NCBI GenBank assembly: GCA_016779485.1
Contig: JADHNN010000001.1
Coordinates: forward strand, 223,885 to 279,235
Direction: 5' to 3'
Length of the DNA: 55,351 nucleotides
Source of the DNA: Gammaproteobacteria bacterium
Lineage (GTDB): Bacteria > Pseudomonadota > Gammaproteobacteria > GCA-002705445 > GCA-002716945
Part shown: piece by piece, positions 32,391 to 49,361 of the stretch
Layout: every line of letters starts with the position of its first letter
Numbering within the stretch: the first letter of the stretch is position 1
The notes under the pieces: model-generated
What the model was told of the DNA's origin: nothing
The model's input: only the letters and a program-made list of their open reading frames with translations
The model's database searches: none
Made by a program: the position numbers and the translations under genes

Positions 32391-33152
32391 ATGAGAGGTT
32401 TGTTATCACGTGTAATACCAGCGGTACTAGTCTTTACGATGCCGTCACTTGTATTTGCAGGAGACTTAGCAGCTAATGACTACGTTGGCGTTACTTTCTG
32501 GATAATTTCAATTGCCATGGTAGCATCAACCGTCTTTTTCCTTGTTGAAAGAGATAGAGTTAATCCCAAATGGAAAACGTCATTAACAGTTACTGCACTT
32601 GTTACGCTTATTGCAGCTGTTCATTACTTTTATATGAGGGATGTTTGGGTCGCAACAGGCGATTCACCAACGGTATTTAGATATATTGATTGGCTACTCA
32701 CAGTTCCATTATTAATGATCGAATTCTATTTCATACTTGCAGCTGTTACAGCTGTGTCAGTAGGCATATTCTGGAGATTATTAATTGGTACTTTAGTGAT
32801 GCTAGTAGGTGGATACTTAGGCGAAGCTGGAATAATATCAGCAATGCTAGGATTCATTATCGGAATGGCTGGCTGGATATACATTCTATATGAAATCTTT
32901 GCTGGTGAAGCAGCGCAAAAATCTGAGTCTTGCGGAAGCGCAGGTGCTCAAATGGCATTCAATGCTTGTCGTACTATCGTATTAGTTGGCTGGGCGATTT
33001 ATCCATTAGGATATCTACTTGGATATCTAATGGGAGCCGCTGATGCAGCTAGTCTCAACTTAGTATATAACCTTGCTGATTTTGTTAACAAAATTGGATT
33101 TGGTATATTTATCTGGGCAGCAGCTGTAACAGATTCAGAAGAATCAGCTTAA
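32391..33152 (+). CDS. green-absorbing proteorhodopsin, light-driven proton pump
   Basis: A 253-residue seven-helix retinal protein. A signal peptide precedes GDLAAND, with cleavage likely after VFA at residue 23. His78 pairs with Asp100, the Schiff-base proton acceptor, in helix C (RYIDWLLTVPLLMIEF). Thr104 and Glu111 complete the D-T-E motif of proton pumps (97, 101 and 108 in the reference numbering). Leu108, equal to position 105, predicts green absorption; blue types have Gln. Lys234 in NLADFVNKIGFG binds retinal. It pumps protons outward across the inner membrane and is followed by the genes that make retinal. Confidence 0.98.
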   Translation: MRGLLSRVIPAVLVFTMPSLVFAGDLAANDYVGVTFWIISIAMVASTVFFLVERDRVNPKWKTSLTVTALVTLIAAVHYFYMRDVWVATGDSPTVFRYIDWLLTVPLLMIEFYFILAAVTAVSVGIFWRLLIGTLVMLVGGYLGEAGIISAMLGFIIGMAGWIYILYEIFAGEAAQKSESCGSAGAQMAFNACRTIVLVGWAIYPLGYLLGYLMGAADAASLNLVYNLADFVNKIGFGIFIWAAAVTDSEESA

Positions 33153-33171
33153 AAATAACTAAATAACATAA

Positions 33172-33199
33172 CATACAAGGAGTGAAAACTCCTTGTATG
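33172..33199 (+). promoter_or_regulatory. 12-bp stem with GAAA loop between proteorhodopsin and crtI
   Basis: CATACAAGGAGT and ACTCCTTGTATG pair perfectly around a GAAA tetraloop. The 5' arm includes AAGGAG (33177-33182), the only Shine-Dalgarno-like sequence before crtI. The hairpin ends seven bases before the crtI ATG, and there is no T-run, so it does not look like a plain intrinsic terminator. It could cap the abundant proteorhodopsin mRNA or limit translation of crtI. Confidence 0.85.
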
Positions 33200-33206
33200 A
33201 ACTCAA

Positions 33207-34676
33207 ATGAAAAAAGCAATTGTTATAGGCTCAGGCTTTGGCGGACTTGCTATTGCTTGCAGACTTAGAGCAATGCAATATGATGTTAAAGTATTAGAAA
33301 AACAACCGAATTTAGGTGGACGAGCAAGAACATTAAATCATAATGGTTTCGAATATGATGCCGGGCCAACAGTGATAACAGCTCCATATCTAATCAACGA
33401 ACTCTTTTCTTTGCATGAAGAGGACTCAAGAGACTATTTCAATTTGTTAAAAGTTGAACCGTTTTATAGATTCTTATTTAATGACGGATCATATTTTGAT
33501 TACGGCTCTTCATTAAAAAGAATGCTTACTGAGATGAAGACTAAATATTCTAAAGAAGACGCAACAGGGTATCTAAAACTTCTTAAGCATTCAAAAAGAA
33601 TATTTAACACAGCTTACTTAAAGTTATCAGACTATCCTTTTGAAACACTAAATAGTATGCTTCCTTATATTCCTGAGTTAATGAAAATAAAATTTTATAA
33701 ATCAGTGCACTCTTCTGTAAAAAGTTATCTAAATAATCCGCATCTTATACAAGCAATGAGCATGCACCCGCTCTTAGTTGGAGGCAATCCTTACACAACA
33801 ACTTCAATATATCTACTTATTCAGTATTTAGAATGGAAATGGGGAGTTTACTATGCCGAAGGTGGTACACGCTCTATTATTAATGGATTTGAAAAACTTT
33901 TTAAAAAGTTAAATATTGAGTATGAAACAAATTGTGAAGTAATTGGTATTGAGAACAAGAATAATAAAATTCACTCAGTGGTAACAAATAATAACGTTTA
34001 TGAAACAAACTTAGTTGTCAGCAATACTGACCCATCGTACTTCTATCCAGAGATTCTTAAAATTAAACCTAAAAAAATATTTAATAAACCCGCTATTTTG
34101 AAACATTCTATGGGTCTATTCGTCTTATATTTCTCAACAAAAAAACAGTACGATGATGTCAAACATCATACAATCATCTTTAATAAGAGACACAAAGAAT
34201 TATTAGAAGATATATTTGATAAAAAAGTTTTTATTGACGATCCAAGCTTATATTTACATAGACCAGCTGCTACAGATAAAAAAAATATTCAAAATAATTC
34301 AGATTCATTTTATGTTCTTGCACCAGTTGCTAACAATGAAAGCTCTATTGATTGGGACATTAAAGGGGAAGAGTTTTCATCTCATATTATTCAAATTTTA
34401 TCTGAAAAAATATTACCCAATCTTAAAAATGAAATTATTAATAAGTTCTTTATTACTCCTAACTATTTTGAATCTGATCTAAATTCATTTAAAGGTAGCG
34501 GTTTTGGCATACAACCAATTTTTAGACAATCAGCATATTTTAGATATTCTAATAAATCTAAAGAATTAAATAACTTATATTTTGTTGGAGCAGGAAGTCA
34601 TCCGGGCGCGGGTGTACCTGGTGTAATATCATCTGCAAAAGTTACAGAAAAGCTTATACTTAAATATAATGGATAG
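33207..34676 (+). CDS. crtI: phytoene desaturase (lycopene-forming)
   Basis: A 489-residue FAD-dependent enzyme converting phytoene to lycopene by four desaturations. The N-terminal FAD fold is VIGSGFGGLAIACRLRAMQ, followed by EKQPNLGGRARTL and YDAGPTVITAP. The C-terminal carotenoid-dehydrogenase signature is FVGAGSHPGAGVPGVISSAKV. It overlaps crtB by 8 bases. A hairpin seven bases upstream separates it from proteorhodopsin. The coding sequence is slightly more AT-rich than the atp genes. Confidence 0.96.
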   Translation: MKKAIVIGSGFGGLAIACRLRAMQYDVKVLEKQPNLGGRARTLNHNGFEYDAGPTVITAPYLINELFSLHEEDSRDYFNLLKVEPFYRFLFNDGSYFDYGSSLKRMLTEMKTKYSKEDATGYLKLLKHSKRIFNTAYLKLSDYPFETLNSMLPYIPELMKIKFYKSVHSSVKSYLNNPHLIQAMSMHPLLVGGNPYTTTSIYLLIQYLEWKWGVYYAEGGTRSIINGFEKLFKKLNIEYETNCEVIGIENKNNKIHSVVTNNNVYETNLVVSNTDPSYFYPEILKIKPKKIFNKPAILKHSMGLFVLYFSTKKQYDDVKHHTIIFNKRHKELLEDIFDKKVFIDDPSLYLHRPAATDKKNIQNNSDSFYVLAPVANNESSIDWDIKGEEFSSHIIQILSEKILPNLKNEIINKFFITPNYFESDLNSFKGSGFGIQPIFRQSAYFRYSNKSKELNNLYFVGAGSHPGAGVPGVISSAKVTEKLILKYNG

Positions 34677-35490
34677 TAATACAAACATACTGAAAAAAAA
34701 TAGTAAAACATTTTATATTGCATCACTATTTCTCCCAAAAAAAACTAGAAATAAGGTCTTAACTGTTTATGCATTCTGCCGTTTATATGATGACAATGTT
34801 GATTGCGAGCGATCTATAGATACGGAAGATCTAGAAAACAGTATTAAAAGGTATGGAGTCGAGACCCCTGTCATAAATCAGCTTAAAGAAGGCATTAGTT
34901 CAGATATGTATTCAGGGCACATCACATCATTTAATGATTTATTGAACTATTGTTATAAGGTTGCAGGATGTGTAGGTATTATGATGTGCGATGTCTTAGA
35001 TATAAAAAATAAAGAGGCAAAATATCATGCCATTGATCTTGGTATCGCCATGCAGATAACAAATATATGTAGAGATATAAATGAAGATCTTTTGATGAAT
35101 AGAGTTTATTTACCTAAAGACAGAATAAGTAAAGGTGAAATATTAAATCATGATAATGATAAAATATATAAGGTTACTTCAGATTTAATTAGATTGTCTA
35201 ATGATTATTATTCAAGTGCTTTAGAGGGCATAAAGTATATACCATTGGGTTCAAGATTCTCGATACTTTATGCATTACAACTGTACAAGGAAATTGGTCA
35301 AAAAATCTTGAAAAACAAGAAAACGTTTGTGCTAAATAAAGTCAATACTTCAAAGTTTGACAAAGTCAAGATTCTAGTAAAAACGTTTTATATGTTTGTT
35401 TCACAATATTTATTCTGTAGTCCTAAAAATCATAATCAATCTCTTCATTCTTCACTTAAAGGGTTACCAAATACTCATGAAAGAGTATGA
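34669..35490 (+). CDS. crtB: phytoene synthase
   Basis: A 273-residue prenyltransferase that joins two GGPP molecules head to head to give phytoene. SKTFYIASLFLPKK opens the domain. The first Asp-rich motif is YDDNVD near residue 41, and the second lies in ITNICRDINEDLLMNRVYLPKD near residue 130, with the usual GRxYLP replaced by NRVYLP. It overlaps crtI by 8 bases and crtY by 14, so crtIBY are translated together. No GGPP synthase gene (crtE) is visible in the window. Confidence 0.95.
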   Translation: MDSNTNILKKNSKTFYIASLFLPKKTRNKVLTVYAFCRLYDDNVDCERSIDTEDLENSIKRYGVETPVINQLKEGISSDMYSGHITSFNDLLNYCYKVAGCVGIMMCDVLDIKNKEAKYHAIDLGIAMQITNICRDINEDLLMNRVYLPKDRISKGEILNHDNDKIYKVTSDLIRLSNDYYSSALEGIKYIPLGSRFSILYALQLYKEIGQKILKNKKTFVLNKVNTSKFDKVKILVKTFYMFVSQYLFCSPKNHNQSLHSSLKGLPNTHERV

Positions 35491-36595
35491 CATTATAATT
35501 GTTGGAGCTGGCTGTTCCGGTCTCAGTCTTGCTTATAGATTAATTAATACAAAATACAAAGTTTGCGTGATAGATAATAATTCAAAAACAAATAGAATAA
35601 GGAAGACATGGTCTTATTGGGATACATACAAACACCCTTTCAAAGAACTTGCTAAATCATTTAACAATAACCTTTGTATATCAAATAACTTGAAGGTTAA
35701 TCTTGATTGTTCTAGGCACAACTATTCAAGTATAGATTCTTATGACTTTGATAAATTCATTTTTAAAAAAATAGATGACTCATCAAATATAGAAATAACT
35801 TTTGAAACAAAAATAATTGATATCTCTGAATATGAAGGAAGTTTTAAAATAAATATGCCGAATAAAAGTATACAATCAAAATATGTCTTTGATAGCAGAC
35901 CAGCTTCTAAACCTAGCAAAATGAAACAAGTTTTCAAGGGCCTATTTATTAAAACTGATGAGCAACTTAAAACGTTCAAACCCACTTTAATGGATTTTAG
36001 CGATAGCAATGAATTCCATTTTTTCTACTGTTTAGATATGGGGAATAACACATATTTATTTGAGTCAACTTATTATACCTCTTTAAAGAAAGAACAATCT
36101 GAAATGACGAAAGAGATTAATGAATATATCAAAGAAAACTATCAAATAAATTATTCAGTAATTAGAGAGGAATATGGCGAAATACCACTAACAACAAATA
36201 TTAGGATAAACAATAAAAATTCTAAGCTAACAAATATTGGCATTCCTGCTGGCTCAACTAGAGCATCTACAGGATATACTTTTTTGAATATACAAAAACA
36301 AGCAGATGAATATATTAAAAAACTTGCAGGTGAAGACTATAAAGAATATTCAAGAACGTTCAAAAATATTATCCTTAGAAAAATGGATAATATTTTATTA
36401 ATGATCATTAAAGATAGACCTGTATATAGTAAGTCTATTCTTTTTAGATTATTTGAACGTAATGAAGATAATAGAATTATTAGGTTTCTATCAGATACGC
36501 CGTCAATTATTGATATATTAATTATTATCTGGAATATGCCAAAAATAATATTTATAAAATATGCTATTAAATCACTTACAGCAAGAAATCTTTAG
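35477..36595 (+). CDS. crtY: lycopene beta-cyclase
   Basis: A 372-residue flavoprotein-like cyclase closing both ends of lycopene to beta-carotene. The N-terminus MKEYDIIIVGAGCSGLSLAYRL is the dinucleotide-binding fold. Further support is RKTWSYWDTY, LMDFSDSN, YLFESTYYT (the FLEET-type region) and GIPAGSTRASTGYTFLNIQKQA. I use the ATG at 35477; an upstream ATG in the same frame at 35396 would add 27 residues that lie wholly inside crtB. It overlaps blh by 35 bases. Confidence 0.93.
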   Translation: MKEYDIIIVGAGCSGLSLAYRLINTKYKVCVIDNNSKTNRIRKTWSYWDTYKHPFKELAKSFNNNLCISNNLKVNLDCSRHNYSSIDSYDFDKFIFKKIDDSSNIEITFETKIIDISEYEGSFKINMPNKSIQSKYVFDSRPASKPSKMKQVFKGLFIKTDEQLKTFKPTLMDFSDSNEFHFFYCLDMGNNTYLFESTYYTSLKKEQSEMTKEINEYIKENYQINYSVIREEYGEIPLTTNIRINNKNSKLTNIGIPAGSTRASTGYTFLNIQKQADEYIKKLAGEDYKEYSRTFKNIILRKMDNILLMIIKDRPVYSKSILFRLFERNEDNRIIRFLSDTPSIIDILIIIWNMPKIIFIKYAIKSLTARNL

Positions 36596-37454
36596 AAAAT
36601 ATCAGCTATTGCTATTAGCAAATTTAAGTGTCATTAGCTGGGTGTGCATGATTATCTTGCCAGAACTATTTGCAATTAATATTCAACTTACCCTACTTTT
36701 AATAACAGTATCGATAATAGGAATACCGCATGGGTACTTTGATTTTCTAATTGCAAAAAAACTTTTTAATAATTATAAATTATGGTTGATAAAATTTATC
36801 TTTTCATACTTATCCATATCACTAATTTATTTAATGGGCTGGCTGTATTACTCAGAAATTGCATTAATATTCTTTTTGATAACATCTATTTATCACTTTG
36901 GTATAGAAGAGACGGAAGAAATCGAAAAAAAGAATTATTTATTAATTTTTCTTCTTGGAAGTACCCCAATATTTGTACCAATACTATTTCATACTTCCGA
37001 AGTTTTTTCATTCTTCAGTATTCTCTTGAACTATAATTTTCAGCCATTATTTGTTTTGAATGAATTAAAATATATTTATGTAATTTTATTTCTATTATTT
37101 CTTATTAATTATAAAAAATTACTATTCCTATATATTTTACTTTTAATTAATTTCATCTTTCTGCCACCACTCATTTCCTTCATTCTCTACTTTTGTTTTC
37201 ATCACTCCTTAAGACATTATTTATATTCAATGAGTGATTCGAATATATATCCAAATAGTCTAAACTTAGGGAAGCTTGCGTTATTTTTTATAATTCTTAC
37301 TATTACGTTTACTGTTATAGCTATTATCTTAATGTTGAAACTAACCACATTCACTTTTCAACATGTAATAATCCAATATATTTTTATAACTCTTGCATGC
37401 CTAACATTGCCTCATTTAATTCTTAATATTTATTATGAAAATACTAGCAAGTAA
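36561..37454 (+). CDS. blh: beta-carotene 15,15'-dioxygenase (Blh/Brp family)
   Basis: A 297-residue very hydrophobic membrane enzyme that cleaves beta-carotene into two retinal molecules, the chromophore of the proteorhodopsin. Histidine-bearing motifs for iron recur through the helices: GIPHGYFDFLIAKK, TSIYHFGIEE, CFHHSLRHYLYS and LPHLILN. It closes the retinal cassette, overlapping crtY by 35 bases, so expression is likely coupled. Among the most AT-rich genes of the window. Family and position make the call secure. Confidence 0.94.
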   Translation: MLLNHLQQEIFRKYQLLLLANLSVISWVCMIILPELFAINIQLTLLLITVSIIGIPHGYFDFLIAKKLFNNYKLWLIKFIFSYLSISLIYLMGWLYYSEIALIFFLITSIYHFGIEETEEIEKKNYLLIFLLGSTPIFVPILFHTSEVFSFFSILLNYNFQPLFVLNELKYIYVILFLLFLINYKKLLFLYILLLINFIFLPPLISFILYFCFHHSLRHYLYSMSDSNIYPNSLNLGKLALFFIILTITFTVIAIILMLKLTTFTFQHVIIQYIFITLACLTLPHLILNIYYENTSK

Positions 37455-47906: not shown

Positions 47907-47914
47907 AATTGAAT

Positions 47915-47941
47915 ACACACCGCCTTATTTAGGCGGTGTGT
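47915..47941 (-). terminator. glnA-glnL intercistronic hairpin (attenuator-like)
   Basis: ACACACCGCC and GGCGGTGTGT pair perfectly around a 7-base loop, 7 bases after the glnA stop and 8 bases before the glnL ATG. There is no T-run on the minus strand, so termination would be weak or need Rho. In enteric bacteria a terminator at this junction lets only some glnA transcripts continue into glnLG; this hairpin may do the same or protect the glnA 3' end. Confidence 0.75.
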
Positions 47942-47948
47942 CTTTAGT

Positions 47949-49361
47949 TTATAGACTGTAGTACATTTCAAACTCACAAGGGTGAGTAGATTGTCGCAAT
48001 CTTTGTACTTCCTCTGTTTTAAGATCTATATACGAGTCGATCATTTTATTTGTAAAGACGTCGCCTGCATTTAGAAATTCTCTATCTTTATCAAGGGCGT
48101 CTAATGCAATCCACAGACCCTCTGCAACTGTTGGAAGCATTTTCTCTTCCTCAGCTGAAATAGAAAACAGATCCTTATCCATTGCTGGACCTGGATCAAT
48201 TTTATTTTTAATACCATCTAGCCCAGCCATCATCATTGCAGAAAATGCTAAATATGGGTTAGCAGTAGAATCTGGGAATCTTACCTCTATACGCCTAGCT
48301 TTATCAGACATCACATAAGGTATACGTATAGATGCTGATCTGTTACGAGCAGAGTATGTAAGAATTACAGGAGCTTCAAAGCCTGGAATTAAACGCTTGT
48401 AACTATTAGTGGATGCATTTGTAAATGCGTTAAGCGCACGAGCATGTTTTATTATTCCACCAATATACCAAAGAGCTTCTTGTGACATATTCCCATATAA
48501 ATCACCAGCAAAGATATTTTTTCCATCTTTAGCAAGGGACTGATGAACATGCATACCTGAGCCATTATCACCAACAACAGGCTTTGGCATGAAGGTTGCT
48601 GTTTTTCCAAATGCATGCGCTACATTTTGTACAACATATTTAAATTTTTGAACTTCATCTGCTTTTTTAACAAGCGTATTGAATAGTGTTCCAATTTCAC
48701 ACTGACCAGCTGTTGCTACTTCATGATGATGAACTTCACATTGGACACCTACCTCATGCAGTGTTGTAATCATCGCAGATCTACAATCCTGAAGTGCATC
48801 CACAGGTGGAACTGGGAAATAACCGCCTTTAACTACAGGTCTATGTCCCATATTACCATCATCATAATTCTTGCCACTGTTCCAGCAAGCTTCGGTAGAA
48901 TCTACTTTAAAAAAACAACTTCCTGTTTTATCTTCAAACTTAACATCATCAAATACAAAGAATTCGTTTTCAGGACCAAAGTAGGCTGTATCTGCAATGC
49001 CAGATTCTGAAAGAAATTTTTCGGCTTTCTTAGCAATACCTCTAGGATCTTTTTCATATGTTGAACCATCTTCAGGTTCAATTACATCACACGTTACATT
49101 AATCGTTGGTTCATCAAAAAATGGATCTGCAAAAGCTGTTGATGTGTCCGGCATAAGTATCATGTCAGACTCATTGATATCTTTCCAGCCAGCAATGGAT
49201 GATCCATCAAACATTTTTCCTTCTTCACAATCTGTAGCTATACCTTCATCGGTGGTTGTTACAGTAACGTGTTGTTCTTTACCTTGAGTATTGGTAAACC
49301 TATAGTCTATGAATTTGGCTTCTTTCTCATCAACCAATTTCTTTATGTCATTTGCGCTCAT
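47949..49361 (-). CDS. glnA: glutamine synthetase type I, lacking the adenylylation tyrosine
   Basis: A 470-residue GSI that condenses ammonia and glutamate using [60 protein letters not shown] and the length identify the GSI-beta form, normally controlled by GlnE adenylylation. The target tyrosine (DKNLYDLPPEE in E. coli) is Phe399 here ([13 protein letters not shown], codon TTT at 48165-48167), so this control should be lost. I start at ATG 49361, with AGGAAT upstream, not at 49412, because the sigma-54 promoter start site lies downstream of the latter. Confidence 0.97.

Follow-up and report, generated by a model that had tools for sequence, protein, structure and literature searches.

Proteorhodopsin (PR) is usually encoded beside the retinal genes, although the cell can be expected to require opsin in much larger amounts than the enzymes, and how one operon might deliver such unequal outputs is the question raised by the junction examined here. 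The window, that is, the whole stretch of 55,351 nucleotides of gammaproteobacterial DNA that was analysed, carries on its + strand an open reading frame for PR (32391-33152, stop codon 33150-33152) with a good Shine-Dalgarno sequence, AGGAG, 6 nt ahead of its ATG. Next come crtI (33207-34676), of the phytoene desaturase family (TIGR02734, 478 bits), and then crtB, crtY and blh (34669-37454, + strand), whose reading frames overlap, leave no hairpin gaps between them, and encode CrtB-, CrtY- and Blh-like proteins in that order. The gene names of the original prediction, proteorhodopsin and crtI, are correct, the latter by its profile match and the former through its relatives, 71-82% identical proteorhodopsins in genomes of the same family, on which the identity of PR rests.

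Between PR and crtI, the first gene 3' of it, stands an intercistronic hairpin (33172-33199, + strand), CATACAAGGAGT-GAAA-ACTCCTTGTATG, in which arms at 33172-33183 and 33188-33199 form 12 perfect pairs around a GAAA loop (33184-33187). Both the sequence and folding bear out the perfect GAAA-capped stem that had been described there, while its placement needs a small correction: the stem does end 7 nt ahead of the crtI ATG, as stated, but starts 19 nt past the PR stop rather than 20. Its minimum free energy of -17.7 kcal/mol has a z score of -8.2 relative to shuffled sequences, and no other perfect stem in the window combines 12 or more pairs, 5 or more of them G-C, with a loop of 3-8 nt; 40 first-order randomised windows held no stem of that kind, which, together with the z score, puts the element far beyond chance. 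An Rfam search found no family above the gathering cut-off at the site, the best match being FinP, whose 18.3 bits fall short of the 45 required. A REP-like repeated element is likewise ruled out, as the window holds no second copy of the stem even when 3 mismatches are allowed.

The relatives show that the structure, and not its exact letters, is what is kept. In a family sample of 25 genomes that includes the window's own, of 0.91 Mb, all 17 genomes having the PR-crtI junction (again with the window's) carry a hairpin there that begins 7-19 nt past the PR stop. The 5' arms vary (AAGGAG, AAGGGGC, ACAGGGAGCG, ACATGGGGCTC, CACACGGGAGTT and others), and the 3' arm always matches. Conservation does not extend to the GAAA tetraloop, since loop sequences vary as well, and a function specific to it is ruled out. 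Within genus g6, whose junction alignment is gap-free in the stem and hence secure in register, 3 of 12 pairs have changed on both sides with pairing kept, a result reached by 10 of 500 shuffles; the window's genus, also aligned in secure register, adds 1 further compensated pair, and the family-wide consensus has compensated changes in 8 of 11 pairs. We rely on these genus alignments and this consensus. Counting pairs outward from the loop over the whole family agrees with compensation but overstates double changes, because stem registers differ (the arms of the window and of locus L039 are nearly identical but shifted), and MAFFT alignments of the bare 28-nt hairpins (A4, A5), in which the stems fell out of register, were excluded. 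The comparison of relatives proposed with the original prediction thus yields a conserved stem with compensatory changes, and a structure preserved while its sequence changes is a feature of decay-blocking hairpins. One genome of the sample, G015, holds at locus L018 a different rhodopsin, 54% identical, that has no crtI after it and is followed by a classic U-tailed terminator.

Hairpins after PR extend well beyond this family. A scan of the genome collection by PR alignment gave 80 loci, mostly from gamma-, alpha- and betaproteobacteria. Of 82 PR junctions, family included, 72 have a hairpin of -12 kcal/mol or below after PR, compared with 10 of 101 control gaps, these being other same-strand gaps in the same loci. 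The hairpin is found both where crtI comes directly next and where crtI is some 1 kb farther away, as would be the case with crtE in first place. The count of 72 is probably too low, since a longer stem with a large loop, in Polynucleobacter-related loci, escapes the simple search for hairpins. By eye, the PR 3' region of these loci (L065, L066, L071 and L074) seems to hold such a stem, read as cgggcatatct..agatgtgcccg and then T-rich. A hairpin directly after PR, at so large a share of junctions, would be a simple and testable answer to the problem of unequal output from one operon.

What such a hairpin does is less plain than its presence. The original prediction had it hiding the crtI ribosome-binding site, and was right that the 5' arm contains AAGGAG (33177-33182, + strand) and that no other good Shine-Dalgarno match precedes crtI. 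The hiding itself is not borne out. The motif ends 24 nt ahead of the crtI ATG, whereas in the 279 kb contig (C7 of genome G000, window included) AGGA/GGAG peak 5-7 nt before starts; a hidden Shine-Dalgarno sequence is ruled out on this spacing. Genes without such a sequence are, moreover, the rule in this genome: an SD-like 4-mer at a spacing of 3-17 precedes just 68 of 290 contig genes (with gene starts approximate), and most appear to lack one. The arm of some relatives is itself no more than a weak match (CATAGGGC, CATGAGGC), and the recurrence of a G-rich 5' arm is no evidence for a hidden site, since changes between G-C and A-U pairs by way of G-U keep the purines on the same side. An influence on crtI translation is nonetheless possible, as the stem lies within the ribosome footprint. 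A throttle that blocks ribosome loading on crtI, whether through the AAGGAG inside the stem or through closeness to the start codon, is still distinctly improbable to us as the explanation of the element, for the distance between stem and crtI ATG itself drifts, from 7-16 nt in the family to as much as 22 nt in the sister group described below. More improbable again, to the point of being hardly credible, is a role at the level of DNA or of an antisense transcript. A perfect inverted repeat near the crtI start could serve as an operator for a crt regulator, and a terminator scan did call a terminator-like tail on the - strand; yet relatives preserve the pairing with other arm sequences, which is not how an operator behaves, PR and all the crt genes are on the + strand, and the tail called on the - strand is A/T-rich sequence of a generic kind. 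Promoter-like sites around the junction are no commoner than in shuffles, a result that weighs neither for nor against a separate crtI promoter.

The alternative that deserves most attention is partial intrinsic termination, in which most transcription would end just after PR and the crt genes would be expressed from read-through. The stem, with 5 of its 12 pairs G-C and the stability given above, would suffice for the G+C-rich stem of an intrinsic terminator, and terminator-like hairpins close to PR are common across proteobacteria. In a sister group with the same PR-crtI arrangement (nine loci: L043, L044, L047, L048, L050, L051, L053, L056 and L061, of which L047 belongs to family f40), a textbook intrinsic terminator occupies this position, typically of the form AAAGGCTCGCT..AGTGAGCCTTTTTTT, with stem energies similar to those here (-16 to -19 kcal/mol) and a U-tract directly after the stem (at least 6 T in 9/9, the tails having 7-8 T). 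Within the window's own family, genus g6 keeps tails of 6-7 T in three of five loci. The window hairpin, by contrast, is followed by AACTCAA, with no U-tract and nowhere more than 4 T per 8 nt in the tail region; no locus of its genus reaches 6 T (0/7, at most 5 T), nor does any in genus g2 (0/5). The terminator scan did not call the + strand site. U-tailed stems do occur elsewhere in this genome, for example after ftsZ. With the U-tract missing, termination in the window's genus is probably weak, and partial termination as the main role of the element seems to us possible but doubtful. The sequences suggest, most simply, that the element probably derives from a PR-proximal intrinsic terminator like that of the sister group, with the stem kept and the tail lost, if this is the direction in which change ran.

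We favour a block to decay over a weak intrinsic terminator, a translation throttle, or a DNA or antisense role, and hold with somewhat better than even confidence that the hairpin acts as the 3' boundary of the PR message, shielding it from exonucleases. PR and crtI-crtB-crtY-blh would probably be co-transcribed from a promoter assumed to lie upstream of PR; the crt part would be cleaved or would decay from its 3' end, with decay halting at the stem; and a stable PR-only mRNA would accumulate, from which opsin could be made in excess over the carotenoid enzymes. The boundary may perhaps also terminate weakly. A decay block and a weak terminator predict the same outcome, more PR mRNA than crt mRNA, and differ in whether it is the polymerase or decay that stops. 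The placement of the element accordingly suits the 3' stabiliser or attenuator part of the original prediction, in which an upstream stabiliser was paired with a downstream throttle; the part that fell away is the concealed ribosome-binding site, and the unequal expression that it presumed is one that we, too, infer.

The decay machinery of this genome is consistent with such a boundary. Stable stems make PNPase stall, and it is RNase R that unwinds them; in E. coli, PNPase with a helicase partner can pass stems. Profile searches of the window's genome (G000) found Rho, PNPase (1031 bits) and RNase E/G, and detected no RNB-domain exonuclease (RNase II/R) by PF00773. For TIGR00358 (NCBIfam), none of the 25 family genomes scored above the cut-off, weak matches being confined to the C-terminal end of the model and falling also in PNPase, whereas all 12 genomes of the sister family have an RNB domain. 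PNPase, an exonuclease of the kind stopped by stems, is the only processive 3' exonuclease found in this genome, and because it stalls at stems while RNase R is missing, a bare stem should serve effectively as a 3' end here.

Strong stems occur in few places in this compact genome: 14 of 178 co-directional gaps have one of -14 kcal/mol or below. The gene calls rest on a simple ORF rule (ATG starts, at least 60 codons), so some gene starts and gaps are approximate. The genes upstream of strong stems include glnA, groEL and those for isocitrate lyase, a PstS-type binding protein, FtsZ, FtsH, rubrerythrin, a methanethiol-oxidase-like protein and PR, the names glnA, groEL and FtsZ being assigned by eye. 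Several of these encode classically abundant proteins and precede a gene needed in smaller amount, if high expression may be assumed from identity. A comparison case within the window is the hairpin between glnA and an ntrB-like gene (47912-47944, - strand; glnA stop 47949-47951, ntrB-like ATG 47906). Among 23 family genomes checked (L164-L186), 20 have a stem of -14 kcal/mol or below between glnA and the next gene; these stems begin a few nt after glnA, vary in sequence, usually lack a U-tract, and end just before the next start. The exceptions are L172 and L183, without a good stem under the same scan, and L185, in which it is weaker.

A broader proposal can be built on these observations for the window's lineage, namely that in a streamlined genome the loss of RNase II/R left PNPase as sole processive 3' exonuclease, so that a bare stem would suffice to fix an mRNA 3' end, the U-tracts of former terminators would have eroded, and tail-less stems would now punctuate pairs of highly and lowly expressed genes (PR-crtI, glnA-ntrB, PstS and others). 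In keeping with it, long U-tracts are mostly missing from the PR hairpins of the family that lacks RNase II/R, and the RNB-bearing sister family has U-tract PR terminators, which amounts to a single evolutionary contrast. When U-tracts after strong stems were compared genome-wide between this genome, one relative from g6 and one from the sister family, tail-less stems were in excess here only as a weak trend (rank test p ~0.04, Fisher p ~0.2). We put the proposal forward tentatively and regard it as rather unlikely in this full form, but it poses a further question for this lineage, of how mRNA 3' ends form in small genomes that lack RNase II/R.

Hairpins that give the segments of one message different stabilities are an already known device; for its application to proteorhodopsin operons we found no report. 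The open-access literature searched held no description of a hairpin after PR, though key older PR-operon papers fall outside that coverage, which makes this weak evidence. Two known systems invite comparison. The malE-malF structure of E. coli is REP-based, unlike the single-copy PR stem, to which it is unrelated in sequence, and the two are alike in being 3' structures placed just after a first, abundant gene. In malE-malF and other E. coli operons, protective 3' structures stop 3'-to-5' exonucleases (PMC5927463). Closer still in setting is the Rhodobacter puf operon, with an intercistronic hairpin between pufBA and pufLMX, known to us as cited in later papers: the title of Klug 1987 speaks of a hairpin loop region affecting segmental mRNA stability, and Chen 1988 of an mRNA decay terminator (PMC11354728, PMC5927463). 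There, as here, a stem separates a light-harvesting gene needed in excess from downstream genes of the same light-energy operon, whereas genes and sequence are unrelated, and the PR element, described here from sequence, is a single short perfect stem whose distance to the next start is 7 nt, in a genome that lacks RNase II/R. Being a stable stem-loop between two co-directional genes, with the structural features of this kind of element, the PR hairpin probably works as the puf and malE-malF hairpins do.
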